A stretch of 64,000 nucleotides of DNA from an uncultured Bacteroidota bacterium (GTDB lineage Bacteria > Bacteroidota > Bacteroidia > Bacteroidales > P3): assembly GCA_902784865.1 (NCBI GenBank), contig CACZWL010000016.1:1-64000 (forward strand), in the 5' to 3' direction. Of this stretch, positions 13,088-51,929 are shown one piece after another. The notes beneath the pieces are model-generated. The model saw only the letters and a list, made by a program, of their open reading frames with translations. It made no database searches and had not been told where the DNA came from. A program made the translations under genes and the position numbers. Every line of letters starts with the position of its first letter. The stretch's first letter is position 1.

Positions 13088-13138
13088 CAGGTATCTGGTA
13101 GGTGTCTGGTAGGTATCTGGTAGGTGAATACTTCGACT
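13088..13138 (+). repeat. 11-bp microrepeat array (TAGGTRTCTGG)
   Basis: Units at 13088-13098, 13099-13109, 13110-13120 and a degenerate one at 13121-13131, followed by TTCGACTCT. The array at 17095-17138 has the same unit and the same TTCGACTCT end. Confidence 0.8.
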
Positions 13139-15396: not shown

Positions 15397-17094
15397 ATGA
15401 ATGATACAATACTCGAGGTCAGGGACCTCACGGTGGCTTTCGACGAGCGTACGGTGGTCGAAGGCGTGAATTACAGTCTGCGGCGCGGCGAGACGCTGGG
15501 CATCGTGGGCGAGAGCGGCTCGGGCAAGAGCGTGAGCTCGCTGGCGCTGATGGGTTTGCTACCCCGCCATGCGTCGGTGAAGGGAGAGGCTTTGTTGAGA
15601 ACGGAAAGTGGAGAGCGGAGAGTGGAGAGCGGGGGGATGGACTTGCTGAAGCTTGACGAGGAGGGGTTCCGCGAGGTGCGCGGACAGCGCATCGCCATGA
15701 TTTTCCAAGAGCCGATGACGAGCCTGAACCCGGTGCAGAAGTGCGGGGAGCAGGTGATGGAGATGATGAGGACGGAGAACGGACGGGAGCGGGTGATTGA
15801 GTTGTTCCGCGAGGTGCTGATGCCGCGGCCGGAGAAGATTTTCGACAGCTATCCGCACGAGATCAGCGGCGGACAGAAGCAGCGCGTGATGATTGCCATG
15901 GCGCTGGCCAACAACCCCGATATCATCATTGCCGACGAGCCGACGACGGCGCTGGACGTGACGGTGCAGAAGACGATACTGGAGCTGCTGCGCTCGCTGC
16001 AGGAGAAGTACGGCACAAGCATCATCTTCATCAGCCACGACCTGGGCGTGATAGGCCAGGTGGCGGACCGTGTGATGGTGATGTACCGCGGCAAGGTGGT
16101 GGAGCAGGGGTCGGCGTCTGAAATACTGCACCATCCGCAGGAGCCCTACACGCAGGGGCTGCTGGCCTGCCGTCCGCCGCTGGACAGGCGTCCGCGGAGG
16201 CTGCCAACGGTGGAGGAGTTTTTGGGGAATACTGGGGATATAGAAAAACTAGAAAGTCTAGAAAATCTAGAGAGTCTAGAAGATATAGAGAGTAAGGCGC
16301 TCCCGCTCATCTCGGTGCAGGACTTGACGGTGACGTATACGCTGAAGAAGAGCCTCTTGGGGAAGCCGCTGCAGACACTGAAGGGGGTGGACGGGGTGAG
16401 CTTCGACATCATGGAGGGCGAGACACTGGGTCTGGTGGGCGAGAGCGGATGCGGCAAGAGCACGCTGGGGCGCGCGCTGCTGCGGCTGATAGACCACTCG
16501 AGCGGCAGCATCAGCTACCGCGGGCAGTCGCTCGACACGCTCGGCGCCAAGGAGGTGCGTGCGCTGCGGCCCAAGCTTCAGATTATCTTCCAGGACCCCT
16601 ACAGCTCGCTGAATCCGAGGCTGACCATCGGCGACGCCATCGGCGAGCCGTTGCGGGTGCACAGAGGCGAAAGGTTGAAGGCGAAAGGCGGAACCGAAGA
16701 TGCCGTCGTGGAGCTGATGGAGCAGGTGGGGCTGCGGGCCGACTGGTACAACCGCTACCCCCACGAGCTGAGCGGCGGTCAGCGGCAACGCGTATGTATA
16801 GCGCGTGCGTTGGCGTTACAGCCGGAGCTGGTGGTGTGCGACGAGAGCGTGTCGGCGCTCGACGTCAGCGTGCAGGCACAGGTGCTCAACCTGCTGAACG
16901 ACCTCAAGGAGCGCTACCACTACACGTACCTCTTCATCACGCACGACCTCAGCGTGGTGAAATTCCTGTCGGATCGCATCATGGTGATGCGCCAGGGGCG
17001 CATCGTGGAGCAAGGCACTCCGGACGAGCTGTTTGCCCACCCTCAAACCGAATACACGCGGACGCTGATCAACGCCATACCGCGCATCGGGTGA
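15397..17094 (+). CDS. Fused di/oligopeptide ABC transporter ATPase (DppD-DppF type)
   Basis: 565-residue cytoplasmic protein with two complete nucleotide-binding domains. NBD1: Walker A GESGSGKS, signature ISGGQKQR, Walker [13 protein letters not shown]2: [28 protein letters not shown]. Each NBD is followed by the oligopeptide-transporter C-terminal extension ([15 protein letters not shown] and [13 protein letters not shown]). No permease or binding-protein gene is adjacent. Two microrepeats are inserted in frame: a heptamer array at 15597-15631 within the loop between Walker A and Q-loop, and a nonamer array at 16238-16291 in the linker. ATG 15397 chosen; upstream in-frame sequence is G-rich and non-conserved. 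Confidence 0.9.
15597..15631 (+). repeat. Heptamer microrepeat GAGARYG inside the ABC ATPase gene
   Basis: Five 7-bp units: GAGAACG, GAAAGTG, GAGAGCG, GAGAGTG, GAGAGCG. Three units (21 bp) equal seven codons, so the peptide reads [12 protein letters not shown] without breaking frame. Confidence 0.85.
16238..16291 (+). repeat. Nonamer CTAG microrepeat in the ABC linker
   Basis: Six 9-bp units of the form NNCTAGARA/ATATAGARA encode the acidic linker [19 protein letters not shown] between the two ATPase domains. Confidence 0.85.
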
Positions 17095-17138
17095 CAGGTG
17101 TCTGGTAGGTATCTGGTTCGTATATCGTTCGACTCTGG
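17095..17138 (+). repeat. 11-bp microrepeat array, second copy
   Basis: Units CAGGTGTCTGG, TAGGTATCTGG, TTCGTATATCG, TTCGACTCTGG, starting within the stop codon region of the ABC gene. Same unit and end as the array at 13088. Confidence 0.75.
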
Positions 17139-17248
17139 AGCGATCTGGCGCGATTTGGTGCATTTGGCCCCAAAACGGTGCCGCGGGAGCATATTTTTTT
17201 TACGCTTTCCATACTATAAACCAGAGTTGTGCGTTAAGAAGAACAATT

Positions 17249-19375
17249 ATGGAAACCAGCGACAACATCTTGCTAAAGGAGTGGGAACTTCCCCCCCTCG
17301 ACCGAATCTGCACCGACGACTACGAGCCTGCCGTGCGCGCCACGCTGGCCGAGGCCGAACGCAACATAGAGGCCATCGCCACCAACCCTGAGGCGCCGAC
17401 GTTCGCGAACACCGTGGAGGCGCTGGAGCGGGCCTCGGCGCGGCTGGACCGCGTGAGCGCCATCATGCTGAACCTCAACGAGTGCCACACCAGCGAGGCA
17501 CTGCAGGACATCGTCATGCGGCTGGAGCCGGAGCTGACGCGCTTCAACATGAAGGTGATGACCGACAGGCGGCTGTACGAGAGGGTGGTGGAAGTGGAGA
17601 ACGGAGTACGGAGAGCGGAGAGTGCTACCCACTACCCACTCTCCACCGAGCAGCGGACGTTGCTGGAGGAGACGCTGAAGGGGTTCCGCCGTCACGGCGT
17701 GGCCCTGGAGGGCGAAGCCTCGGAGCGCTACAAGAAGAACGAAGAGGAGCTGTCGGCGCTGAAGCTGCGCTTCGGGCAGAACGCGCTGGCCGACCTCAAC
17801 GACTGGACGCTGCACCTGACCGACGCAGCCGACCTCGAGGGGCTGCCCGAGAGCGTACGCACCGCAGCACACGAGGAGGCCGAGAGCCGCGGCATGGAGG
17901 GTTGGGTGTTCACCCTCGCCCACCCCAGCTACGGCCCCTTCATGACCTACAGCGCACGGCGCGACCTGCGCCAGCGGATGTACCGCGCCTACGGCTCCAT
18001 AGGCAACCGCGGCAACGAACGCGACAACAACGCCACCATACGCCGCATCGTCGAGCTGCGCGCCGAGCAGGCCCGCATGCTCGGCTACGACACCTACTGC
18101 GACTACGTGCTGGAGGACCGCATGGTGCGCTCGCTCAGCAACCTGCGCCACTTCATGCAGGACTTGAAGGCGGCGGTGCTGCCGGCGGCCAAGGAGGACC
18201 TGCTGGCAGTGGAGAACGGAGAGCGGAGAACGGAGAGCGAAGAGATTGAGATTCAAGATTCTGAAATCAGAAATCAGCATTCTTCCCTCATGCCGTGGGA
18301 CTTCGCCTACTATGCCGAGCGGCTGAAGCGCGAGCGCTACGACCTTGACGAAGAGGCGCTGCGCCCCTACTTCCCTCTGGAGGCGGTGAGGGCGGGCATC
18401 TTCGGCCTCTACAACCGCCTCTATGGCCTGTGCTTCGAGGAAGCCCCCGAGGTCCCCGTATACCACCCCGACGTACGCGTATACCGCGTCAGCCAAGGTG
18501 AACGGAGAACGGGAAACGGAGAGCGGAGAATGGAGATGGGCCTGTTGTACCTCGACATGCACCCGCGGGCGTCGAAACGGAGCGGTGCCTGGATGACCGA
18601 GTTCCGCGGGCAGCACGGCCCGGTAAGGCCGCAGATTCAGGTGGTGTGCAACTTCAGCAAGCCCACGGCCGACACCCCCGCCCTGCTGCGCTTCAGCGAG
18701 GTGGAGACCTTCATGCACGAGATGGGACACGCCATGCACGGCATGCTCAGCGAGGTGCAGTACGAAAGCCTTGGCGGCACGAACGTGAAGCGCGACTTTG
18801 TGGAGATGCCCTCGCAGGTGATGGAGAACTGGTGCTACGAGCCTGAGTTCCTCGCCACCTTCGCACGCCACTGGAAGACCGGCGAGCCCCTGCCTACAGA
18901 ATATATAGAAAAGATACGCGCGGCGCAGAACCACCTGGCCGGCTGGTACTGCCTGCGGCAGCTCAACCTGGGACTGACCGACCTGGCCTTCCACACCGTG
19001 CCCGACGGCACCGCCGTCGGGAAAGCCGAGGAGGTGGAGGCCGCAGCCATGGAGAACCTGCTGCCGCGGGTGGAGGGCTGCTGCACCGCCACCAACTTCA
19101 GCCACATCTTCGGCGGCGGCTACGCCAGCGGCTACTACGGCTACAAGTGGGCCGAGGTGCTCGACGCCGACATCTTCAGCCGCTTCAAGCACGACGGCAT
19201 CTTCAACACAGAGACCGCCGCCAGCTTCCGCCGCGAGATACTGAGCCGCGGCGGCACCGAGCACCCCGCCGTCCTCTTCCGCAACTTCATGGGCCGCGAC
19301 CCCGACCAGCAGGCCCTGCTCAAAAGAATGAACCTGATATACCAGGAAGCCCTAGGAAGCCCTAGGAAGTCCTAA
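17249..19375 (+). CDS. M3 family oligopeptidase (Dcp/OpdA-like zinc metallopeptidase)
   Basis: 708-residue cytoplasmic peptidase that degrades oligopeptides. The zinc motif HEMGH lies at 490-494 (TFMHEMGHAMHGML), with the downstream glutamate in a EMPSQVMENW helix and the substrate-binding HIFGGGYASGYYGYKWAEV region near 630. Three segments absent from homologues are encoded by heptamer microrepeats: near residues 116-132, 322-344 and 415-430. The last codons and the stop are inside a 10-bp CTAGGAAGYC repeat, so the C-terminus EALGSPRKS is repeat-derived. Located 5' of rnr. It may process peptides taken up by the neighbouring ABC ATPase's system, but this is inference. Confidence 0.92.
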   Translation: METSDNILLKEWELPPLDRICTDDYEPAVRATLAEAERNIEAIATNPEAPTFANTVEALERASARLDRVSAIMLNLNECHTSEALQDIVMRLEPELTRFNMKVMTDRRLYERVVEVENGVRRAESATHYPLSTEQRTLLEETLKGFRRHGVALEGEASERYKKNEEELSALKLRFGQNALADLNDWTLHLTDAADLEGLPESVRTAAHEEAESRGMEGWVFTLAHPSYGPFMTYSARRDLRQRMYRAYGSIGNRGNERDNNATIRRIVELRAEQARMLGYDTYCDYVLEDRMVRSLSNLRHFMQDLKAAVLPAAKEDLLAVENGERRTESEEIEIQDSEIRNQHSSLMPWDFAYYAERLKRERYDLDEEALRPYFPLEAVRAGIFGLYNRLYGLCFEEAPEVPVYHPDVRVYRVSQGERRTGNGERRMEMGLLYLDMHPRASKRSGAWMTEFRGQHGPVRPQIQVVCNFSKPTADTPALLRFSEVETFMHEMGHAMHGMLSEVQYESLGGTNVKRDFVEMPSQVMENWCYEPEFLATFARHWKTGEPLPTEYIEKIRAAQNHLAGWYCLRQLNLGLTDLAFHTVPDGTAVGKAEEVEAAAMENLLPRVEGCCTATNFSHIFGGGYASGYYGYKWAEVLDADIFSRFKHDGIFNTETAASFRREILSRGGTEHPAVLFRNFMGRDPDQQALLKRMNLIYQEALGSPRKS
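17597..17645 (+). repeat. Heptamer array with inverted second half in the M3 gene
   Basis: GAGAACG, GAGTACG, GAGAGCG, GAGAGTG are followed by CTACCCA, CTACCCA, CTCTCCA. GGAGAGTG and CACTCTCC can form a hairpin, all within the coding frame. Confidence 0.75.
18212..18280 (+). repeat. Heptamer arrays of two families in the M3 gene
   Basis: GAGAACG, GAGAGCG, GAGAACG, GAGAGCG (18212-18239) pass directly into ATTCAAG, ATTCTGA, AATCAGA, AATCAGC, ATTCTTC. The combined insert encodes about 25 extra residues (ENGERRTESEE, then IEIQDSEIRNQ). Confidence 0.75.
18498..18539 (+). repeat. Heptamer microrepeat in the M3 gene, third array
   Basis: Six 7-bp units (GTGAACG, GAGAACG, GGAAACG, GAGAGCG, GAGAATG, GAGATGG) encode GERRTGNGERRMEM. 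Confidence 0.8.
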
Positions 19376-19391
19376 GAAATCCTAGAACCCC
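19342..19391 (+). repeat. 10-bp CTAG microrepeat supplying a stop codon
   Basis: CTAGGAAGCC, CTAGGAAGTC, CTAAGAAATC, CTAGAACCCC. The TAA that ends the M3 peptidase is part of the third unit. Confidence 0.75.
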
Positions 19392-19410
19392 TAAAAAAAC
19401 AAAAAAAACA

Positions 19411-21717
19411 ATGAACGAACAACTAGCCAAACAGATACTCAAGATCTTTGCCAACAACCCCTTCGACGCCTTCAACCACAAGCAGATATCCTCGCGCATA
19501 GGCGCCGGCAGCAAGGCCGATCGACAGGAGGTGATACGCACCATGCAGCAACTGGCCGAGGAGAAGCACCTCGTCGAGGACGACCACAAGGGGAAATACA
19601 AAATCAACCCCAAGAGCATCGACGACGACCTGGCGCCGAAGAACTACGTGCTCGGCACCATCGACATGAAGCAGGGCGGCAAGGCCTACGTCATCCCTCA
19701 GGAAGAAGGGCGCGAGGACATACAGATCAGCCCCGCCAACACCAACCACGCCCTGCACGGCGACACGGTCCGCGTGCTGATGTTCCCCCAGCGCAAGATG
19801 CACAAGCCTGAAGGGCAGGTGGTGGAAATCGTCAAGCGCGCCAAGACGCGCTTCGTCGGCGTGCTGCAGAAGCAGGAGCGCTTCGCCTTCATGGTGAGCG
19901 ACTCGCGCACGATGAACGTCGACATATTCATCCACGTGGACGACCTCGGCGGCGCCGAAGACGGCGAGAAAGTGCTCGTCGAGATGACCGACTGGCCCGA
20001 GCGCATGAACAACCCCGTGGGCAAGGTCATCAAACGCCTGGGCCGCCCCGGCGACAACAACGTGGAGATGCAGTCTATCCTGGCCGAATACGACTTCCCC
20101 CTGGAGTTCCCCGCCGAGGTGGAGGCCGAAGCCAAGAAGATCAAGAAACCCACCAAAAAGGAGATGGCCGGGCGCAAGGACTTCCGCGACGTGCTCACCT
20201 TCACCATCGACCCCGCCGACGCCAAGGACTTCGACGACGCCCTCTCCTACCGCGAGCTGGAGAACGGCCACGTGGAGGTGGGCGTCCACATTGCCGACGT
20301 GAGCCACTACGTCAAACCCGGCACCGCCCTCGACCGCGAGGCCTACGAGCGCGGAACCTCCATCTACCTGGTCGACCGCACCATCCCCATGCTACCCGAG
20401 AAGCTCTGCAACGACCTCTGCTCGCTCCGCCAGGACGAGGAGAAGCTCACCTTCAGCGTCGTCATGGAGATGGACGCCAAGGCCAAGGTGCTCAAAAGCT
20501 GGATGGGCAAGACGGTGATCCGCAGCGACCGCCGCATGGCCTACGAGGAGGCCCAGGAGATAATTGAAAATGGAAATAATTCCAACGATGCTATCGCCAC
20601 CGCAGTGCTGCAACTCCACGGGCTGGCCACCAAGCTCCGCAACGCACGCTTCAAGACCGGCGCCATCAACTTCGAAAGCCAGGAGGTGAAGTTCCAGCTC
20701 GACGAGAACGCCAAACCCATCGGCGTATACATCAAGGAGAGCAAGGAAGCCAACTGGCTCATCGAAGAGTTCATGCTGCTGGCCAACAAGACGGTGGCGG
20801 AACACGTCGGCAAACCCACTAGTAAGACTAGTAAGACTAGTACAACTAGCAACGCCCGCACTTTCGTCTACCGCGTGCACGACGAGCCAAATCCCGAGAA
20901 GCTCAACACCTTCGTCGAGTTCGTCGCCAAGCTGGGCTACAGCATGAAGGTCGGCAGCCGCAAAGCGCTGGCCGACAGCTACAACCGTCTGTTCGAGAAC
21001 ATCGCCGGGCGCGGCGAGGAGAACATGATCGACACCATCGCCATCCGCACCATGAGCAAGGCCTACTACAGCACCGAGAACATAGGCCACTACGGCCTGG
21101 CCTTCCCCTACTACACCCACTTCACCTCGCCCATCCGCCGCTACCCCGACCTGATGGTGCACCGCCTGCTGGAGCGCTACCTAGAGGGCGGCAACAGCGT
21201 CAACCGCAGCGAGTACGAGGACTACTGCAAGCACTGCTCTCTCATGGAGAAGAAAGCCGCCGACGCCGAACGCACCAGCATCAAATACAAGCAGGCCGAG
21301 TTCCTCTCCGACAAGCTGGGGCAGGTCTTCCCCGCCCTCATCAGCGGTGTCAGCAAATGGGGCATATACGCCGAAATCGAGGGCAACAAGTGCGAAGGCA
21401 TGATACCCATCGGCAGCCTCAAGGACGACTACTACATGCTCGACGAGGACAACTACCAGGTCATCGGCCGCCGCCACGGCAAGTGCTACAAGCTGGGCTA
21501 CCCCGTAAACATCCGCGTCAAGCGCGTCGACATGCTCAAGAAGCAGATCGACTTCGAGCTGGCCGAGGAGGAGGAGCGGAGAACGGAGAGAGGAGAACGG
21601 AGGGCTGAGAGAGGAAAACGGAAAGCGGAAAGTGGCAAACGGAAAACGGGAAAGGGGGATAAAAAAGAGCCCTCCGGCGGCGGTAAACAGCGCAGCCGGA
21701 AGGGGCGGAAAAGATAG
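19411..21717 (+). CDS. rnr: Ribonuclease R
   Basis: 768-residue processive 3'-5' exoribonuclease. Order: N-terminal helix-turn-helix (about 5-75), cold-shock domains (about 75-240), the RNB catalytic domain beginning FTIDPADAKDFDDALSY (near 268) with the four catalytic aspartates, a THFTSPIRRYPDLMVHRLL helix, an S1 domain (FPALISGVSKWGIYAEI, near 640) and a very basic tail. A CTAG nonamer array inserts TSKTSKTSTTSN near residue 470-482, and twelve heptamer units make the tail ERRTERGERRAERGKRKAES. The tail charge suits RNA or ribosome contact. Confidence 0.95.
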   Translation: MNEQLAKQILKIFANNPFDAFNHKQISSRIGAGSKADRQEVIRTMQQLAEEKHLVEDDHKGKYKINPKSIDDDLAPKNYVLGTIDMKQGGKAYVIPQEEGREDIQISPANTNHALHGDTVRVLMFPQRKMHKPEGQVVEIVKRAKTRFVGVLQKQERFAFMVSDSRTMNVDIFIHVDDLGGAEDGEKVLVEMTDWPERMNNPVGKVIKRLGRPGDNNVEMQSILAEYDFPLEFPAEVEAEAKKIKKPTKKEMAGRKDFRDVLTFTIDPADAKDFDDALSYRELENGHVEVGVHIADVSHYVKPGTALDREAYERGTSIYLVDRTIPMLPEKLCNDLCSLRQDEEKLTFSVVMEMDAKAKVLKSWMGKTVIRSDRRMAYEEAQEIIENGNNSNDAIATAVLQLHGLATKLRNARFKTGAINFESQEVKFQLDENAKPIGVYIKESKEANWLIEEFMLLANKTVAEHVGKPTSKTSKTSTTSNARTFVYRVHDEPNPEKLNTFVEFVAKLGYSMKVGSRKALADSYNRLFENIAGRGEENMIDTIAIRTMSKAYYSTENIGHYGLAFPYYTHFTSPIRRYPDLMVHRLLERYLEGGNSVNRSEYEDYCKHCSLMEKKAADAERTSIKYKQAEFLSDKLGQVFPALISGVSKWGIYAEIEGNKCEGMIPIGSLKDDYYMLDEDNYQVIGRRHGKCYKLGYPVNIRVKRVDMLKKQIDFELAEEEERRTERGERRAERGKRKAESGKRKTGKGDKKEPSGGGKQRSRKGRKR
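20818..20853 (+). repeat. ACTAGTAAG nonamer array inside rnr
   Basis: Four 9-bp units (ACTAGTAAG twice, ACTAGTACA, ACTAGCAAC) keep the frame and add the Thr/Ser/Lys-rich insert TSKTSKTSTTSN into the catalytic domain region, presumably on a surface loop. Confidence 0.85.
21572..21655 (+). repeat. Twelve-unit heptamer array encoding the RNase R tail
   Basis: About twelve units of the GAGAACG/GAAAGCG family, the longest array in the window. Units drift from GAGARCG to GAAARCG along the array. Confidence 0.85.
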
Positions 21718-21886: not shown

Positions 21887-21960
21887 AGACACCCTCTTCT
21901 TCCCCTCTTCTTCCCCTCTTCTTCCCTGGTCAGGGGGTGGCAGGCGGGGGGCTGGGGAGA
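21887..21960. repeat. CCTCTTCTTCCC tandem repeat with G-rich complement
   Basis: Three 13-bp CTTCTTCCCCTCT-type units followed by a GGGGGTGGCAGGCGGGGGG half. Related intergenic sequences occur at 30964, 47382 and 58699, usually with a polypyrimidine half facing a G-rich half. Confidence 0.6.
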
Positions 21961-23188: not shown

Positions 23189-25549
23189 ATGAGACGGTTC
23201 ATATACATACTGCTGGCATTTCAATTTTCAATTTTCAATTTTCAATTTGCTCAGGCCCAGTGCACGGTGAAGGGTGTGCTGTTTGACGAGAGCAACGGCG
23301 AGTCGATACCCTTCGCCAACGTGGTCCTCGACGGCACCACCCACGGATGCGCCACCGACATCAACGGCTTCTTCCTCATCAACAAGGTGCAACCCGGCAC
23401 CTACACGCTGAAAGTCAAATACGTAGGCTACGAAGAGTACGCCGAGAGCATCACCCTGGCCAAGGGCAAGACCCTCACCAAAACCATCCACCTGAAGCCT
23501 GCGGCGCAGATGCTCAAGGCGGTGGAAATCACCGACAACAAGAAAGAGGAGCGCCAGATGCAGACGCAGGTCAGCGTTGAGAAGCTGACGTCGAGCCAGA
23601 TACAGCAGATGCCCTCCATCGGCGGCCAGGCCGACATAGCGCAGTACATGCAGGTGCTGCCGGGCGTGAGCTCCACCGGCGACCAGGGCGGACAGCTCTA
23701 CATCCGCGGCGGCTCGATGATACAGAACCTCTGCCTGCTCGACGGCATGATTGTCTACAACCCCTTCCACTCCATCGGCCTCTACTCCATCTTCGAGACC
23801 GACGTCATCCTCAACGCCGACATCTATACCGGCGGCTTCGGTGCGGAATACGGCGGCCGCATGTCGTCGGTGATGGATATCACGACGCGCGACGGCAACA
23901 AGCGTCGCCACAGCGGCAAGCTGAGCATCAACACCTTCGGCGCCAGCGCCATACTGGAAGGCCCGCTGAAGAAAGAAAGCGCCACCTCGAAGTCGACCAT
24001 CTCCTACCTGCTGACGGCCAAGAACTCCTACCTCTCCAAGACCTCCGAGAAAATCTACTCCTACATCGACGGCGGCCTGCCGTTCGACTTCCTGGACCTC
24101 TACGGCAAGCTCTCGTTCAACTCCGGCACGGGCAGCAAGCTGAACCTCTTCGGCTTCCGCTTCGACGACCAGGTGCTTGGCTACCAGGCCATTGCCGACT
24201 ACCACTGGCGCAACTACGGCGCGGGCACCAACTTCATGCTGGTCACCGGCTCGTCGGCCATCCTCGACGGCAGCATAGCCTACAGCAACTACAACATCAC
24301 GCTCGACGACGGCTCGGCCGACTCGAAGTCGAGCGACATCGGCGGATTCAACATGAGTCTGCAAATCACCAACTTCCACGGCAACAACAAGCTGAAATAC
24401 GGCATCAGCATCGAAGGCTACACCACCGACTACAAGTTCGTCAACCAGTACGGCAAACACATCTCGCAGCACCAGCCGAGCACCACCCTGTCGGTATTCG
24501 GCACCTACAAGGTAAACACCGGCCGCTGGCTGCTCGACCCCGGCATCCGCATAGCCTACTACGCCACGCTGAACACGCTGACCCCCGAGCCACGCATCGC
24601 CGCCAAGTACAACGCCACCAACGACTTGCGCCTGAAGCTGGCCGCCGGCCTGTACAGCCAGGTATTCCTCGACGCCCGCTCTGACAACGACATCGTCAAC
24701 CTCTTCTCCGGCTTCCTGACCGGCTCGGCCGACCTCAACGTGCCGAATACCTTCCTCGGCGAGGACGTCACCTCGTGCGTGCAACGCGCCAAGCACCTGG
24801 TGCTGGGTGTGGAATACGACCTGACGGAGCACATCACCCTCAACGCCGAGGTGTACTACAAACACTTCGACCAGCTGCTCAACGCCAACCGCAACAAGAT
24901 GTACGACGACACCGACCCCGTCTACTCGCAGAGCGGAAGCCCGATGCTGAAGTCGGAATACCTGCGCAAGGACTACATCATCGAGTCCGGCATGGCCACG
25001 GGTCTGGATATCAGTGCCACGCTCGACCTGGAGCGGCTCTACCTGTGGGCCACCTACTCGCTGGGCTACGTGGAGCGCACGGGCCAGATGACCGACGAGG
25101 CGATGACCGACGAGGCATACACCTACAACCCGCACTACGACCGCCGCCACACGGTGAACCTGCTGGCCACCTACACCCTCGGCGAGGAGCGCCAATGGGA
25201 GCTGAGCGCCCGCTGGACCTTCGGCAGCGGATTCCCCTTCACGCAGACGCAAGGCGTCTTCCAGAGTCTGCTCTTCGGCGACGGCATAGTCAACGACTAC
25301 ACCCGCGAGAACGGCGAGTACAGCATCCACTACGCCGACATCTACAAAGGGCGCCTGCCGTCGTACCACAGGCTTGACGTGGGCGTCAAGCGCAGATTCT
25401 CGCTGGGCGCACGCTCGATACTGGAGCTCAACCTCAGCGCCACGAACCTCTACAGCCGCGAGAACATATTCTACTTCAACCGCGTAACCTTTGAACGAGT
25501 CAACCAACTCCCCATATTGGTATGCTTTGGTGCAACACTGACATTCTGA
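23189..25549 (+). CDS. TonB-dependent outer-membrane receptor
   Basis: 786 residues. Signal peptide MRRFIYILLAFQFSIFNFQF ending AQAQ, then an N-terminal carboxypeptidase-regulatory-like beta-sandwich (VKGVLFDESNGESIPFANVV ... YTLKVKYVGYEEY, about 25-110), a plug domain (IRGGSMIQNLCLLDGMIVYNP, about 165-190) and a beta-barrel ending in an aromatic residue (LTF). No SusD homologue follows, so it is more like a siderophore/vitamin receptor than a Sus system, though ligand is unknown. The signal-peptide core is encoded by an octamer microrepeat. The gene overlaps the next by 28 bp. Confidence 0.9.
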   Translation: MRRFIYILLAFQFSIFNFQFAQAQCTVKGVLFDESNGESIPFANVVLDGTTHGCATDINGFFLINKVQPGTYTLKVKYVGYEEYAESITLAKGKTLTKTIHLKPAAQMLKAVEITDNKKEERQMQTQVSVEKLTSSQIQQMPSIGGQADIAQYMQVLPGVSSTGDQGGQLYIRGGSMIQNLCLLDGMIVYNPFHSIGLYSIFETDVILNADIYTGGFGAEYGGRMSSVMDITTRDGNKRRHSGKLSINTFGASAILEGPLKKESATSKSTISYLLTAKNSYLSKTSEKIYSYIDGGLPFDFLDLYGKLSFNSGTGSKLNLFGFRFDDQVLGYQAIADYHWRNYGAGTNFMLVTGSSAILDGSIAYSNYNITLDDGSADSKSSDIGGFNMSLQITNFHGNNKLKYGISIEGYTTDYKFVNQYGKHISQHQPSTTLSVFGTYKVNTGRWLLDPGIRIAYYATLNTLTPEPRIAAKYNATNDLRLKLAAGLYSQVFLDARSDNDIVNLFSGFLTGSADLNVPNTFLGEDVTSCVQRAKHLVLGVEYDLTEHITLNAEVYYKHFDQLLNANRNKMYDDTDPVYSQSGSPMLKSEYLRKDYIIESGMATGLDISATLDLERLYLWATYSLGYVERTGQMTDEAMTDEAYTYNPHYDRRHTVNLLATYTLGEERQWELSARWTFGSGFPFTQTQGVFQSLLFGDGIVNDYTRENGEYSIHYADIYKGRLPSYHRLDVGVKRRFSLGARSILELNLSATNLYSRENIFYFNRVTFERVNQLPILVCFGATLTF
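23214..23249 (+). repeat. ATTTTCAA octamer array forming a signal-peptide core
   Basis: Four 8-bp TTTCAATT units in frame encode FQFSIFNFQF, the hydrophobic stretch of the TonB receptor signal peptide. Three octamers are 24 bp, or eight codons, so the frame is preserved. Confidence 0.85.
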
Positions 25550-36745: not shown

Positions 36746-37384
36746 AACGAAAACACAAAATCACAGATTAAGAGCCGCCAGCGGGTGGCTCAACACGGGG
36801 AGGTGTTCACTAATCCGCGCGAGGTGAACGCTATGCTCGACTTGGTACGCGATGAGTCGTTTCGGCTCGACAGCCGCTTCCTCGAGCCCGCCTGTGGCGA
36901 CGGGAATTTCCTTATCGAAGTTCTGCGTCGCAAGCTTTCACTACTTTCTTCTGTAAAGTCTTCTACGGAATGGGAGTTCAAAAGTCTTATCGCCGTTGGG
37001 GCGTGCTATGGGATTGAACTGTTGGAGGATAATGTGGAGGCTTGTCGGGAGAGGTTGTATCGCGAGGTTGTGGGTCAGATGGGTCGAATAGGTGATTTGG
37101 GCGACTATGGGAAGAGCTTGCGGTATATGCTGCGGAAAAACATCGTCTGTGGCGATGCCCTCACCTACCGCACTGCGGATAACAGGCCTATCACCTTCTG
37201 CGAGTGGACACCCATTGCGGGCAGCATGCAGTTCTCGCGGCGCGACTTCCAATTTGATTTCCTTGTCAACCAGACACATCAGTATTCTCTCTTCGACGAG
37301 CAGGGCGAGGCGCAGAGCTTCGACGAACCAGTGCGGTCGTATCCTCCGCTGCATTACACTCAACTATATAAATATGGCGATTAG
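36737..37384 (+). CDS. Restriction-modification methyltransferase component, SAM-binding half
   Basis: 215 residues. The SAM-binding motif I is LEPACGDGNFLIEVL (near 49-63), preceded by HGEVFTNPREVNAMLDLV, typical of gamma-class N6-adenine methyltransferases, but no NPPY catalytic motif follows. Small proteins of this form, ending (Y/H)PPxHYxxLxxY, recur directly upstream of Eco57I-like genes in Bacteroidetes, so it is probably complete for its subfamily rather than broken. Role (subunit or regulator of the methylase) is unproven. Its start codon lies within a switch-like leader and its stop begins direct repeat B. Confidence 0.78.
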   Translation: MPSNENTKSQIKSRQRVAQHGEVFTNPREVNAMLDLVRDESFRLDSRFLEPACGDGNFLIEVLRRKLSLLSSVKSSTEWEFKSLIAVGACYGIELLEDNVEACRERLYREVVGQMGRIGDLGDYGKSLRYMLRKNIVCGDALTYRTADNRPITFCEWTPIAGSMQFSRRDFQFDFLVNQTHQYSLFDEQGEAQSFDEPVRSYPPLHYTQLYKYGD

Positions 37385-37494
37385 GTCGCTACGCTCAAAA
37401 TTATTCAAAAATCTAATTCAAAATTATCATAAAAATTTTTATCCAATTTTTTAGAGATTTTGAGGCCGCAGAACGACCACAATGCAACACTCCA
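37378..37494 (+). repeat. Direct repeat B, copy 1
   Basis: About 115 bp starting GATTAGGTCGCTACGCTCAA and ending GACCACAATGCAACACTCC. Ends are mutually complementary (GGTCG...CGACC and CTCAAAAT...ATTTTGAG), with an A/T-rich middle, so each copy is also an imperfect inverted repeat. Confidence 0.85.
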
Positions 37495-37571
37495 ATGATA
37501 TGAAACCTCGCAAGTCTATAAATATGATGATTAGGTCGCTGCGCTCAAAATTATTAAAAAATCAGATTTAA
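37482..37571 (+). pseudogene. Methyltransferase cassette remnant between repeats
   Basis: Begins MQHSNDMK like the downstream gene (MQHPDKMK), but after about ten codons joins, in another frame, the end of an upstream-type gene (VYKYDD and stop, compare LYKYGD and stop at 37384). The body of one methyltransferase gene has been deleted. Confidence 0.7.
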
Positions 37572-37643
37572 AATTCTTCAATTTTTTTATTCAATTTTCT
37601 TGAAATTTTGAGGCCGCAGGCCGACCACAATGCAACACCCCGA
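37527..37643 (+). repeat. Direct repeat B, copy 2
   Basis: Matches copy 1 along its length with scattered changes; its right end includes the start codon and first codons of the Eco57I-like gene. Confidence 0.85.
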
Positions 37644-39192
37644 TAAAATGAAACAAGACTATTCACCGGACATACTGAACTGCCTGGCCAACTTGAGCAG
37701 CGACGAGGTCTTCACCTCGCCGGAGTTGGCTAATAGGATGCTTGACCTATTGCCGCAGGAGTTGTTCCGCAGTCCGAAGACTCGCTTTCTCGATCCCTGT
37801 GCGAAGAGTGGCGTCTTCCTGCGCGAGATTGCCAAGCGGCTGCTGGCTGGGCTGGAAGCGGAGATTCCCGACTTGCAACAGCGTATCGACCACATTATGA
37901 CCCGACAGGTCTTCGGCATCGCCTGTACCGACCTCACCGCCGAGATGAGCCGCAGAACACTCTACTGCTCCAAGCTTGCCAACGGCGAGTATAGCGTCAG
38001 CACCGCCTTCCACGACGGGCATGGCAACCTGCTATACGAGCGGTGCCACCACACCTGGAACGCGCAAGGCCGCTGCAAGTACTGCGGCGCCAGCAAAGGC
38101 GAGTACCTCCGCAGCGACAGCCGCGAGACCTACGCCTATCCCTTTATCCATAAATCAATCAAAGAAATATTCCATAAAGATATGCAATTCGATGTAATCA
38201 TAGGAAATCCGCCGTATCAAATGAGTGACGGAGGTGGTACTGGTGATAGTGCTAAACCTATATATAATCAATTTATTGAACAGGCGAAGAAGATTACTCC
38301 AAGATACCTTATAATGATAACACCATCCCGATGGATGAAAGGTGGTAAAGGCCTGGATGATTTCAGAGAAACTATGCGAAATGATACGCATATTAGGTAT
38401 ATATATGACTATGAGGATGCTTCACACTGTTTTCCTGGACTTCATATTGATGGAGGAGTGAGTTATTTCCTTTGGGATGCTAACTACAAAGGAGAAGTGG
38501 ACTACACCTATAGATCTTTAGATGGAGGAGAATATCGGTCAAAAAGGTATCTCAAGGTTGATTATTCAGACACGATTATACGCGATCCGCGTCAAATTTC
38601 TATCATAAAAAGGGTAAAACAAAAGAGTAATGCGGATTTTTCAAAGATTGTTTCACCAAGGAATCCCTTCGGCTTTTTTGCAGACCTTTTTAATGACCCA
38701 GACAAGTATTCAGAAATAGAACTTTTTGATCATAACATACAAAACGGATGTAAGGTTTACGGTGTTAAAGGCAAGAAGGGGGGGGCGAAACGTGTATGTG
38801 GATACGTGAAGAGGAATAGCATATCCAAAAACCCGGGTTGGGTTGACTCATACAAGCTATTCTTCTCAAAAGCATACATGACAACATCGACAGTTCCTCC
38901 GGAAATAATTAAGGGAGAGCCTGGCGATGTATGCACCGAGACTTTCCTGAATATTGGCCCATTTAAAGAACAAAAAGAACGAGACAATTGCTTGTGTTAT
39001 ATAAAAACAAAATTCTTTAGGGCTTTACTATTCTTCAATAGACATTCTCTAAACATATCTCAGGATTCATTTTCTTCCATCCCCCTCCAAGACTTCTCCC
39101 ATCCGTGGACGGACGAGATGCTGTATAAGAAATACGGCCTGACGGAAGATGAGATTGCCTTTATCGAAAGTATGATACGCCCGATGGAATAG
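37630..39192 (+). CDS. Eco57I-like N6-adenine DNA methyltransferase with target-recognition domain
   Basis: 520 residues. SAM-binding motif I is FLDPCAKSGVFLREIAKRLL (about 51-70) and the catalytic motif IV is VIIGNPPYQMSDGG (near 192-205); a zinc-binding-like CHHTW...CKYCGASKGEYL insert precedes it. The C-terminal part (about 280-500) is the target-recognition domain. GC content drops sharply from codon ~176 (near 38155) and recovers near 39075, indicating exchange of the recognition region. It starts in direct repeat B. With the upstream SAM-binding protein and the downstream helicase it forms a restriction system. Confidence 0.88.
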   Translation: MQHPDKMKQDYSPDILNCLANLSSDEVFTSPELANRMLDLLPQELFRSPKTRFLDPCAKSGVFLREIAKRLLAGLEAEIPDLQQRIDHIMTRQVFGIACTDLTAEMSRRTLYCSKLANGEYSVSTAFHDGHGNLLYERCHHTWNAQGRCKYCGASKGEYLRSDSRETYAYPFIHKSIKEIFHKDMQFDVIIGNPPYQMSDGGGTGDSAKPIYNQFIEQAKKITPRYLIMITPSRWMKGGKGLDDFRETMRNDTHIRYIYDYEDASHCFPGLHIDGGVSYFLWDANYKGEVDYTYRSLDGGEYRSKRYLKVDYSDTIIRDPRQISIIKRVKQKSNADFSKIVSPRNPFGFFADLFNDPDKYSEIELFDHNIQNGCKVYGVKGKKGGAKRVCGYVKRNSISKNPGWVDSYKLFFSKAYMTTSTVPPEIIKGEPGDVCTETFLNIGPFKEQKERDNCLCYIKTKFFRALLFFNRHSLNISQDSFSSIPLQDFSHPWTDEMLYKKYGLTEDEIAFIESMIRPME

Positions 39193-39194
39193 GC

Positions 39195-39262
39195 CGACAC
39201 CACCGAGAGATCACCGAAGGATCACCGAAGGATCGAAGAACCCACAAAGAACCCACGCCGAG
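39195..39262. repeat. 11-bp microrepeat array after the methyltransferase gene
   Basis: Two perfect GATCACCGAAG units with degenerate flanking units, then two ACCCACAAAGA-type units. Confidence 0.7.
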
Positions 39263-43487: not shown

Positions 43488-43500
43488 GGGCGAGCGGCTT

Positions 43501-43545
43501 TTCTAGATTCTCTAGAATTTCTAGAATAACTAGAATTTCTAGTTA
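43501..43545. repeat. Nonamer CTAG microrepeat between MBL hydrolase and ung
   Basis: Five 9-bp units TTCTAGATT, CTCTAGAAT, TTCTAGAAT, AACTAGAAT, TTCTAGTTA. Same family as the arrays inside the ABC ATPase and rnr genes. Confidence 0.85.
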
Positions 43546-49314: not shown

Positions 49315-50519
49315 AAAGCAACACCCTGACTATCATCAAGAAAGAATTCGCCCGCTTCTTCGGCGACCGCCAACTGCTGTTCACCTCGGTGATCATGCCG
49401 GGCCTGCTTATATACATTATATATAGCCTCATGGGCAGCGGCATGGAGAAGATGATGACCGAGGGGCAGGACGAGATGGTGACGCTGCGGGTGGCGAACC
49501 TGCCACCGACCCTGGAGCCTATGGTGACCGGACTGCCCTCGACAATAATACTTCAACAACCTGTCTCCCAAGAGGATATCGACAACCTAAAAGACAAAGA
49601 CCTCAACGAGGTGCTGGTGCGCTTCCCCGAGGACTTCGGCGAGATGGTCGAGACCTACAGCCCGCAGAGCGGCGTCGCCGCGCCCAACGTGGAGATCTAC
49701 TACAACTCGGCCAACAACGCCTCGAGCCGCGTCTACAACATGCTCGACGCCAGCCTCACCGCCTACGAGGACCAGATGGCCAACCGCTTCGACATCAACC
49801 GCGCCACCCCCGACGAGGAGACCGGCGAGGTACCTAGCTTCGACATGGCCAGCCAGGACGACGTGCTGGGCAGCATCCTCTCCAAGCTCATCCCCATGCT
49901 GATACTGATGATGCTCTTCAGCGGCGTGATGGCCATCGCCCCCAGCTCCATCGCCGGCGAGAAAGAGCGCGGCACCATAGCCACCCTGCTCGTCACCCCC
50001 ATGCGGCGCAACGAGCTGGCGCTGGGCAAGGTAGTGTCGCTCAGCGGCATAGCCCTGCTGAGCGGCCTGTCGAGCTTCATCGGCATCGTGCTGTCGCTGC
50101 CCAGGATGATCCCGGCCGATGCCGCCGGCGTCGAGCTGGGACTCAACTACACGGGCGCCGACTATACGGTGCTGCTGCTCATCATCCTGGCCACGGTGCT
50201 CATCATGGCCTCCGCCGTCAGCCTCCTCTCGGCACTGGCCAAGGACGTCAAAAACGCCGGCACCATGATCACACCCCTCATGCTGGTCGTCATGTTCTGC
50301 GGCCTCGTACCGATGTTCCAAAGCCATGTGCCCGAAGGACTTGCGGCCTACCTCATACCCTTCTACAACTCCATCCAGGTGATGACCGCCACTTTCGCCC
50401 ACGAGATGACGTGGATGCCCGTCGTGGTGACCCTCGGCGCCAACGTGGTCTATACCGGCGTGGCCGTCTGGGGCCTCACCAAGATGTTCAACAGCGAAAA
50501 GGTGATGTTCAGCAAGTAG
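49311..50519 (+). CDS. natB: ABC-2 type permease (NatB-like)
   Basis: 402 residues with an N-terminal membrane helix (TSVIMPGLLIYIIYSLMG), a large extracytoplasmic region (about 60-190) and a C-terminal block of six membrane segments with GEKERGTIATLLVTPMRRNELALGK, the ABC-2 family motif. Exports Na+ or drugs with natA in known cases; substrate here unproven. Confidence 0.85.
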   Translation: MKSNTLTIIKKEFARFFGDRQLLFTSVIMPGLLIYIIYSLMGSGMEKMMTEGQDEMVTLRVANLPPTLEPMVTGLPSTIILQQPVSQEDIDNLKDKDLNEVLVRFPEDFGEMVETYSPQSGVAAPNVEIYYNSANNASSRVYNMLDASLTAYEDQMANRFDINRATPDEETGEVPSFDMASQDDVLGSILSKLIPMLILMMLFSGVMAIAPSSIAGEKERGTIATLLVTPMRRNELALGKVVSLSGIALLSGLSSFIGIVLSLPRMIPADAAGVELGLNYTGADYTVLLLIILATVLIMASAVSLLSALAKDVKNAGTMITPLMLVVMFCGLVPMFQSHVPEGLAAYLIPFYNSIQVMTATFAHEMTWMPVVVTLGANVVYTGVAVWGLTKMFNSEKVMFSK

Positions 50520-50525
50520 GAGGGG

Positions 50526-50549
50526 AATTGAAAATTGAAAATTGAAAAT
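50526..50549. repeat. Octamer array, minus orientation
   Basis: Three GAAAATTG units, inverse of the octamer array in the following signal peptide (50594-50626), so the two could pair. Confidence 0.75.
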
Positions 50550-50567
50550 AAGAAGCTTGGAAATAGG

Positions 50568-51929
50568 ATGAAACGACTGATCATACTGCTGCTTTTTCAA
50601 CTGTCAATTTTCAATTTTCAATTGATAAAGGCCCAGTGGTGGACAGGCTGGAGCCGGCAGACGTCGCTGGCGCTGTGCCTGCACCTCGACGGCGACAGCC
50701 TGCAGCTCTACAGCCCCCTTCAACACCCCGACCCCATCGCCATCAGCCAGTGGAGCCTGCGCAGCGACACCCTACGCATCGAGTGCCGCAGCATCGGCTT
50801 CAAAGCCACCCTGGCACGCCGTGGCGACCTCTGGCAGGGCAACTGGCGCCAAGGCCTGCTGCGCGAACAGATCACCTTCCACCCCGCCGACACCCTCTAC
50901 CAACTGCGCCGCCCGCAGACCCCACAACCGCCCTACCGCTTTGAAGAAGAGACCATTGCGGCAGACTATGTGGACAGCCGAGGCGACAGCATACACCTCG
51001 AAGGCACCCTCAGCTACCCCAAGGACGGGCGCGGTCCCTACCCCACCCTGCTCCTGGTCAGCGGCAGCGGACAGCAGAACCGCGACGAGGAGCTCCTCTT
51101 CCACAAGCCCTTCCTCGTGCTGGCCGACTACCTAGCCTCCCGAGGCATAGCCACCCTGCGCTACGACGACCGCGGCGTGGGCGCCAGCACCGGCCCCCTC
51201 GACAGCGCCGACACCCACATCCTGGCCGAGGATGCCGAAGCCATGCTCAACGCGCTGAAAACCAATCCGCACGTCGACCGCCGCCGCCTCGGCATCGGTG
51301 GCCACAGCGAGGGCGGCGCCATAGCCCCCATGGTGGCAGCGCGCAACAAGGACGCGAGGTTCGTCGTCATGCTGGCCGCACCCGGCACCACAGGCCGCCA
51401 GGTGCTGGTGCAGCAGAACGAGGACCTGCTCCGCGCACAAGGCGTGCCGCAGCACCTCAGCAGCCTCCGCGCACGCTGCATCGACGCTCTCATAGCACTG
51501 CCGCAGGGCAGCACCGTGAAGGACTATCAGGCTGTCATACTGCAACATACCGACGGCCTGTCGCCCGAACAGATCGACAGCATTGGCCTCAAAAAGGGCA
51601 TGGCCTACACCCTGAAGCAACAGCTGGAGACACCCTGGATGCAGGGCTTCCTCCGCCTCGACCCGGCCGAGTACCTGCCACGTGTGCGGGTGCCCATGCT
51701 GGCACTGCAGGGACTGAAAGACAGGCAGATAGCGGCAAAAGAGAACCTGGCAGGCATACGCCGCCTGGCAGGCAACAGGGTGCAGTGCGAGGCGCTGGCC
51801 GACCTCAACCACCTCTTCCAGCATTGCCTGACGGGGGCGGCCGACGAATACGTACAAATCGAAGAGACCTTCGCTACCGAAGCGATGGAGCTGATTTCCA
51901 AATTCATAAACAACCTGACGGAACAATGA
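50568..51929 (+). CDS. Exported alpha/beta hydrolase (serine esterase family)
   Basis: 453 residues. Signal peptide MKRLIILLLFQLSIFNFQLI ending KAQ, an N-terminal beta domain (about 25-130), and an alpha/beta-hydrolase domain with LLLVSGSGQQNRDEEL (oxyanion strand), RYDDRGVGAST, nucleophile in GIGGHSEGGAIAP (G-H-S-E-G), and catalytic His in LADLNHLFQHC. Similar to DUF1100/S9-like esterases. The longer TTG start at 50535 is disfavoured. Overlaps the next gene (ATGA). Confidence 0.87.
   Translation: MKRLIILLLFQLSIFNFQLIKAQWWTGWSRQTSLALCLHLDGDSLQLYSPLQHPDPIAISQWSLRSDTLRIECRSIGFKATLARRGDLWQGNWRQGLLREQITFHPADTLYQLRRPQTPQPPYRFEEETIAADYVDSRGDSIHLEGTLSYPKDGRGPYPTLLLVSGSGQQNRDEELLFHKPFLVLADYLASRGIATLRYDDRGVGASTGPLDSADTHILAEDAEAMLNALKTNPHVDRRRLGIGGHSEGGAIAPMVAARNKDARFVVMLAAPGTTGRQVLVQQNEDLLRAQGVPQHLSSLRARCIDALIALPQGSTVKDYQAVILQHTDGLSPEQIDSIGLKKGMAYTLKQQLETPWMQGFLRLDPAEYLPRVRVPMLALQGLKDRQIAAKENLAGIRRLAGNRVQCEALADLNHLFQHCLTGAADEYVQIEETFATEAMELISKFINNLTEQ
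50594..50626 (+). repeat. Octamer array forming the hydrolase signal-peptide core
   Basis: TTTTCAAC, TGTCAATT, TTCAATTT, TCAATTGA units encode FQLSIFNFQL, near-identical to FQFSIFNFQF in the unrelated TonB receptor. Confidence 0.85.

Follow-up and report, generated by a model that had tools for sequence, protein, structure and literature searches.

Tandem heptamer arrays in conserved genes of a Bacteroidales genus as possible arms of hairpin-forming repeat elements

We analysed a 64,000-nucleotide stretch of an uncultured Bacteroidales genome (positions 1-64,000 of its contig, hereafter the window; the genome comprises 2.40 Mb in 43 contigs), in which three genes in a row contain arrays of tandem 7-bp units. 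The encoded proteins match homologues and are presumably a dual ABC ATPase, an M3 peptidase and RNase R, names partly taken from a first-pass annotation of the window. We propose, giving the idea an even chance, that the arrays are whole or half arms of a genus-wide family of hairpin-forming repeats whose stems are built of heptamers. A full element would run from a purine-rich heptamer arm through 0-5 bases, the core GGCTG(A/C)CGC and a short spacer, in most cases <20 bases, to a complementary arm of pyrimidine-rich heptamers. Copies would sit between genes, in same-direction or convergent gaps near 3' ends, and in frame within genes, where the survivors would be frame-keeping insertions (three heptamers make 21 nt) at loops, helix ends or tails and only stop-free words would be possible. 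The family may have spread by copying, in the manner of Rickettsia palindromic elements (RPEs), as a selfish or neutral repeat; slippage or arm-to-arm copying in the hairpin may alter word and length, and the core-less arrays of the window would be decayed or half copies.

Heptamer arrays and their sites in relatives

Arrays were counted in the window and a further twenty 20-kb stretches of its genome, together 464 kb of 2.40 Mb; an array needed roughly three or more copies at 83% identity, and the null was an order-3 Markov model. Period 7 gave 45 arrays against 4 in the null, period 9 gave 22 against 2, and period 11 gave 21 against 0; periods 5, 8, 10, 12 and 13 gave 1, 4, 3, 1 and 0. Period 6 also gave 45 arrays, 44 of them within called genes, which is the pattern that codon repeats would give. 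The arrays of the window are thereby confirmed as real and beyond chance. Six relatives (G002, G065, G021, G011, G048 and G028; G marks genomes and L loci) contained 81, 13, 8, 39, 8 and 2 arrays of period 7 and 12, 10, 6, 20, 16 and 29 of period 11. The first-pass annotation had described arrays of 5 to 12 degenerate units in the three genes. All of its sites are present and the translations contain the repeated peptides that it described; the units number 4 to 12, and a pyrimidine arm directly behind the purine arm at M3 site 1 was absent from its description (Table 1). For its unit, GAGARCG, the strict pattern GGAGARYGGAGARYGGAGA was found at 6 places in the whole genome against 0 in the control, 4 of the 6 within the window. 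The loose pattern GGARARY (1 mismatch) had 30 matches and its reversed control 18, and 15 of the 30 fall in the 6-kb stretch of the three genes. On these counts the word is clustered locally and not clearly abundant across its own genome.

To place the M3 inserts in relatives, with one comparison genome per species, we used 80 named Bacteroidales loci and 99 same-genus genomes, of which 98 matched, the window's own included. The nearest named M3 records come from rumen and gut Bacteroidales metagenome assemblies (best-segment identity up to 76%), and the closest relative by M3 in the same-genus search is L089 (81%). In an alignment of 42 M3 homologues (some duplicates), most were without the three inserts, the flanks were conserved, and several had other repeats at the insert sites. 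No homologue from an unrelated genus had the same segments among the 39 inspected out of 80 aligned. At site 1, GAGTTAA words were found in L011, L012, L044 and L099, AATTGAA words in L108, and GGAAAGC words in L089, there with a 20-residue length identical to that of the window. Site 2 held a pyrimidine-type heptamer array in L088 and a 9-bp array in L009. At site 3, L011, L088 and L101 had heptamer arrays of pyrimidine type and L010 a less regular insert, each adding 21 nt to the plain turn; L008 had an unrelated longer turn. On a quick M3 tree with open forks (35 rows, insert columns removed, 8 rows duplicating named loci dropped), site 1 and site 3 each needed 5 changes, and the rows filled at site 3 (window, L010, L011, L088 and L101) stood on separate tips; each of these changes may be a gain, a loss or an exchange of alleles.

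A fourth M3 site held a complete element in frame in L009 and L108, 63 nt longer than the commonest 16-residue length; the search motif of this comparison matched 23 of 27 sequences and missed 4. In the window, the M3 loop that holds the heptamer element in L009 and L108 (19001-19021) contains a perfect GC hairpin, CCCGACGGCACCGCCGTCGGG, and 19001-19040 folds with a z-score of -3.07. The same loop has 9-bp repeats in L101 and L105.

The ABC ATPase insert was absent from all 14 aligned homologues, three of which have a 9-bp SDK-type array there; the 14 comprise 13 of 40 relatives and L015, apparently from a genome already represented among these 13. Core-bearing GGAGARY arrays lie, by coordinates, within the ABC linker of G006 and G036. 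The RNase R tail is K/R-rich and variable, with other sequence in all 31 aligned relatives, and its array reads from the alignment as part of a variable basic tail with no clean insertion. Thus, the in-frame insertion with conserved flanks that had been claimed for all three genes holds for the ABC ATPase and the three M3 sites and not for RNase R.

The M3 peptidase was modelled with AlphaFold2 (26 sequences, mean pLDDT 85.5). In the model, site 1 (residues 117-125) is placed at the end of helix 107-124 and the start of the connection to helix 133-148, site 2 at the end of helix 296-332 and in the connection that follows, and site 3 in the turn between strands 410-417 and 427-436, with pLDDT <50 at 420-423. 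Predicted confidence drops at these sites, with block means of 68 at site 1, 77 in the helix and then 53 in the connection at site 2, and 66 at site 3. This drop would suit selection for flexible charged peptide linkers with the DNA repeat as a by-product, and so would the charged GERR-type peptides to which the purine-type arrays of all three window genes translate. We consider this explanation very improbable, however, since one M3 site reads as GERR in one species and as a QLPT-type peptide, from the opposite-strand word, in others, and since arrays occur outside genes too. Furthermore, among the period-7 arrays of six genomes (75 within genes, 113 outside), the genic ones are of pyrimidine type in 41 of 75 cases, against 25 of purine type and 9 mixed. 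These gene-based counts are rough: the caller trims some starts, that of the ABC ATPase included, G021 is excluded from the totals, and one array (L155, identical to L089) is counted twice.

Arm order, complementarity and a one-sided core

The arrangement of neighbouring arrays was examined in the window plus stretches of seven genomes, chosen independently of order, with neighbours taken within 120 nt. Purine arrays were followed by pyrimidine arrays in 26 pairs and the reverse order occurred in 2, with 20 like-type pairs. Paired arms, compared as reverse complements, differed by 1.19 mismatches, against 2.65 for random arms of the same genome, and 0 of 1000 draws reached the observed value. 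Spacers resembling GCTGACGC (<=1 mismatch) lay between the arms in 7 of 26 cases, a count that none of 2000 shuffles and none of 500 draws from the genome reached; this test used 26 of 29 spacers, omitting two opposite-order pairs and one like-type pair, and some of the spacers are orthologous (L009 and L108). The motif had been picked after viewing the spacers, and was then tested by two pattern searches across the genus. TTGARAATT followed by GCTGACGC occurred at 68 places in 25 of the 98 genomes, with 0 in the reversed control and the opposite order in 0 of 98. Similarly, GGAGARYGGAGA followed by CTGVCGC occurred at 65 places in 21 of 98 genomes, with 2 in the control and the opposite order at 5 places in 3 genomes.

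The core GGCTG(A/C)CGC is common to AATTGAA-type and GGAGARY arrays and lies 3' of the purine arm. Of the 168 oriented arrays in the arm-order sample, 15 had it (<=1 mismatch) on their 3' side and 1 on its 5' side; the reverse complement of the core was seen 3' of 5 arrays and 5' of 1. Of 73 core-bearing arrays, 43 had a pyrimidine array beginning no more than about 50 nt from the core, and for 38 of these 43 it began within 20 nt; the figure for random positions was 42 of 3000. The 43 core-bearing two-arm elements folded with a median z of -3.9, and 31 were below -2. Many loci of this folding set were chosen for the core pattern and its order controls are biased; therefore, the claims on order rest on the pattern searches and the array sample. 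Copies of GGAGARY with arm, core and opposite arm were present in L255, L256, L259, L260, L262 and L266, and an open reading frame (ORF) spans the elements of L255 and L256. In addition, arm-plus-core units are repeated in tandem in L227 (58 bp, four times) and L228 (68 bp, three times). A second repeat of ~8-bp units (AACAATCAAGCAATCA), in several copies, stands behind the core in L228, L229 and L221 (G036). By eye, L197 seemed to have an inverted repeat around its purine arm; no such repeat was apparent in the other copies.

Taken together, the constancy of arm order, the match between paired arms and a core that different words share on one side only argue for an element rather than loose microsatellites. 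Several observations weigh against the element. The core accompanies just ~9% of the sampled arrays and none of those in the window. Among the window's gene arrays, a purine-pyrimidine pair occurs only at M3 site 1 (17597-17645), where the predicted hairpin is weak (z -1.96); no hairpin was predicted at site 2 (z 0.97). Some core-bearing elements fold no better than shuffled sequence (L254 at z 0.7), and 12 of 43 are at z -2 or above. Many other heptamer words have period 7, and the words vary widely among species and sites. At the fourth M3 site, GGAGARY arrays in L007, L012, L044 and L090 leave the length unchanged, a pattern better explained by slippage or conversion in place than by insertion. 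The Y1 transposase family PF01797 is present in 11 of 15 array-rich genomes and in 62 of 98 overall, and is missing from some of the richest (G066 and G070); spread driven by REP-associated tyrosine transposases (RAYTs) was set aside as improbable, since presence of PF01797 was not associated with array richness.

Words that vary, word changes at constant length and the large number of arrays lacking the core point to slippage or conversion acting on an element, or to slippage alone. The latter is the main rival: ordinary heptanucleotide microsatellites would grow in place by slippage from GA- or AT-rich seeds, template switching would make the hairpins, and genes would retain in-frame arrays where the protein tolerates them, with no element and no function involved. 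Such slippage would account for numerous unrelated words sharing one period, for word changes at constant length at M3 sites 1 and 4, for the 9-bp arrays that other species have at corresponding sites and for a majority of arrays without the core; the available text of one paper also names Bacteroidota for high genic tandem-repeat density (PMC12699852). However, it predicts neither a fixed core on one side, common to AT-type words (25 of 98 genomes) and GC-type words (21 of 98), nor a purine-to-pyrimidine order of 26 to 2, and it has no inherent preference for 7 over 5, 8 or 10. We regard plain slippage as possible, on the unlikely side, and retain hairpin-forming elements as our working interpretation.

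Table 1. Short-period repeat features of the window
Feature	Position	Strand	Units and context
ABC ATPase insert	15597..15631	+	5 purine-rich heptamers: GAGAACG GAAAGTG GAGAGCG GAGAGTG GAGAGCG
M3 peptidase site 1, purine arm	17597..17624	+	4 heptamers
M3 peptidase site 1, pyrimidine arm	17625..17645	+	CTACCCA CTACCCA CTCTCCA, no gap after purine arm
M3 peptidase site 2	18212..18239	+	4 heptamers; unrelated AT-rich stretch behind, to about 18290
M3 peptidase site 3	18498..18539	+	5 heptamers and a degenerate sixth
RNase R C-terminal tail	21572..21655	+	12 seven-base steps, several degenerate
AT-word hairpin GAATTGAAAATTGAAAATTGAA ... TTTTCAATTTTCAATT	50518..50630	+	heptamer stem of about 20 bp, z -4.34
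Single AT-word array (TTTCAAT)n	23217..23251	+	gene start or just 5' of gene (ORF from 23189, rough gene call from 23267)
9-bp array (CTAGAAANT)n	16241..16293	+	ABC ATPase linker, in frame; separate short-period repeat class
9-bp array (ACTAGTAAG)n	20818..20842	+	RNase R (SKTSKTSTTS); several relatives with other short repeats here

Spread, placement and other repeat classes

Tandem GGAGARY was found in 41 of the 98 same-genus genomes, the window's own included, with up to 160 places in one and 866 in total, against 28 in the reversed control. These genus-wide counts of word and core include overlapping starts and tandem copies separately, and independent elements are fewer. Outside the genus, GGAGARY was not above background, matching 6 of 295 sampled phylum genomes, compared with 8 matching the reversed control; only 2 of the 295 belong to the same order. 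The family that the first-pass annotation had supposed for Bacteroidales is accordingly a heptamer family mainly of one genus, with many words in place of one. Purely local sharing of words was considered and rejected, as the words are only weakly genome-specific (2.63 mismatches within against 2.84 between genomes, although 0 of 500 permutations reached this).

In the six genomes, the spacer arrays fell into same-direction gaps (76) and convergent gaps (15) and never into divergent gaps (0 of 91), which make up 98 of 675 gaps, and their median distance to a gene 3' end was 45 nt (n=91). This placement, read with the caution due to a rough gene caller, agrees with elements acting at the RNA level, as transcribed hairpins that terminate transcription or stabilise mRNA 3' ends, with genic copies as tolerated spill-over. 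The stable folds and the complementarity retained despite word change would agree with it as well. We nevertheless regard such a role as improbable: 75 of 188 arrays lie within called genes (one counted twice), the core-bearing arm within frames of at least 250 aa is in sense orientation in 11 cases, antisense in 8 and unclear in 41, and no Rfam match was obtained in 15 element loci. A known RNA family was rejected on that Rfam result; the Rfam matches in the window are 2 tRNAs only.

Other short-period repeats accompany the heptamers in this genome. A 9-bp family around TTCTAGAAA occurs in genes and spacers of the window's own genome (window 16241-16293 and 43497-43542, L127 199-261, and others), and other genomes have different 9-mers. 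Arrays of 11 bp lie at 13088-13127, 21889-21930 and 39199-39235 of the window, with further copies among L117-L196. In six genomes, they were found only between called genes (0 of 108 within genes) and, unlike the heptamers, also in divergent gaps (35 of 96). Their main word is genome-specific (2.79 mismatches within against 5.08 between genomes, 0 of 500 permutations), being ACCTACCAGAY in the window's genome, TCGAAGAACAA in G028 and CACCGTACATG in G048. The 11-bp arrays are parts of dispersed elements, which in G028 are hairpins of roughly 100 bp. The idea that the 11-bp words resemble DNA uptake sequences (DUS) was dropped, because many over-represented 11-mers are the tandem arrays themselves. 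The most over-represented 11-mer in the window and L117-L136 of its own genome is GTATCTTTGCA (41 against 0.3 expected), which resembles the Bacteroidales -7 promoter box. A 10-bp array of CCTAGGAAG type (19339-19393) spans the end of the M3 gene and its stop codon, and a 148-bp unit with an AT-rich consensus is present in 1.9 copies at 37367-37654.

Comparison with known repeats and meaning of the arrays

RPEs have a family consensus. The present repeats show no shared consensus over ~100-150 bp; by eye, only the 9-nt core is common and the arms vary. Previous work described RPEs, 105-146 bp long, and Wolbachia palindromic elements (WPEs) as short hairpin-forming repeats, between genes and in frame within conserved genes (PMC2229807). 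Like these, the present arrays include in-frame insertions in conserved genes that are absent from homologues (M3 sites and ABC ATPase), and stem-loops formed from inverted repeats, in the core-bearing two-arm elements and, among the window's gene arrays, weakly at site 1 only. As the whole-length consensus fails, we would compare their working to that of RPEs without classing them as such.

Palindromic CGTC- and GTAG-tagged repetitive extragenic palindromes (REPs) are described between same-direction or convergent genes, 3' of coding regions and in some cases within genes, and the CGTC type is reported in Bacteroidetes (PMC3733652). CGTC REPs have an 8-9 bp stem, a 4-5 nt loop, a tag and a short tail; the available text of that source does not mention tandem units (PMC3733652). 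The present repeats are likewise palindromic and lie between same-direction and convergent genes. However, their stems consist of heptamer arms that enclose a longer spacer, and the tag, the 8-9 bp stem with its 4-5 nt loop and a CCA-like tail were not seen by eye. The reverse complement of the core contains CGTC, which may be chance.

Direct repeats of the heptamer TAACTGA are known from Beggiatoaceae, cyanobacteria and five Bacteroidetes, with other heptamers mixed in in some genomes, reverse-oriented sets in some ORFs, 7-nt indels between close strains and one inverted pair (PMC4679880). In the main genome described there, where one fixed word was studied, they lie mostly just upstream of start codons, and the available text reports neither an arm order nor a core (PMC4679880). 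Heptamer repeats in a few Bacteroidetes had thus been published, of another word and mostly intergenic as far as that text goes, and qualify the statement of the first-pass annotation that a Bacteroidales family of this kind was not known. The tandem 7-bp unit is shared with the present arrays, whereas the words differ, none of the spacer arrays occupies a divergent gap, and they lie near gene 3' ends (median 45 nt). In the literature, no Bacteroidales heptamer-hairpin family was found, with thin coverage of subscription papers.

Cyanobacterial short tandemly repeated repetitive sequences (STRRs) are degenerate short-period arrays. We know of no purine-pyrimidine arm order or core in STRRs or in long simple sequence repeats (LSSRs). 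LSSRs have units of 5-11 (PMC4679880), and tandem units of that size also exceed expectation here, at periods 7, 9 and 11 as counted above. STRRs had been named as the nearest analogue; the analogy covers the repeat unit only, because the arrays are often hairpin arms and a minority have a conserved core. Overall, the interpretation of the first-pass annotation is partly supported.

With considerable doubt, we would go one step further and suggest that these repeats may be hairpins of a new class, mobile or spread by copying, with a conserved 9-nt core and tandem-heptamer arms whose word is exchangeable, period, order and self-complementarity being kept even as nearly all bases change, and which would repeatedly have entered the same protein sites across species. 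If true, such a class would require an enzyme or a replication process that measures seven bases. Palindromes that code for protein are a rare route for repeats into proteins. One genus with many species offers filled and empty versions of the same sites, with different words, so that an inserted origin can be tested directly against one by slippage. GERR, QLPT, SKTS and KLKIEN segments in such Bacteroidales proteins are likely to be repeat insertions rather than domains.

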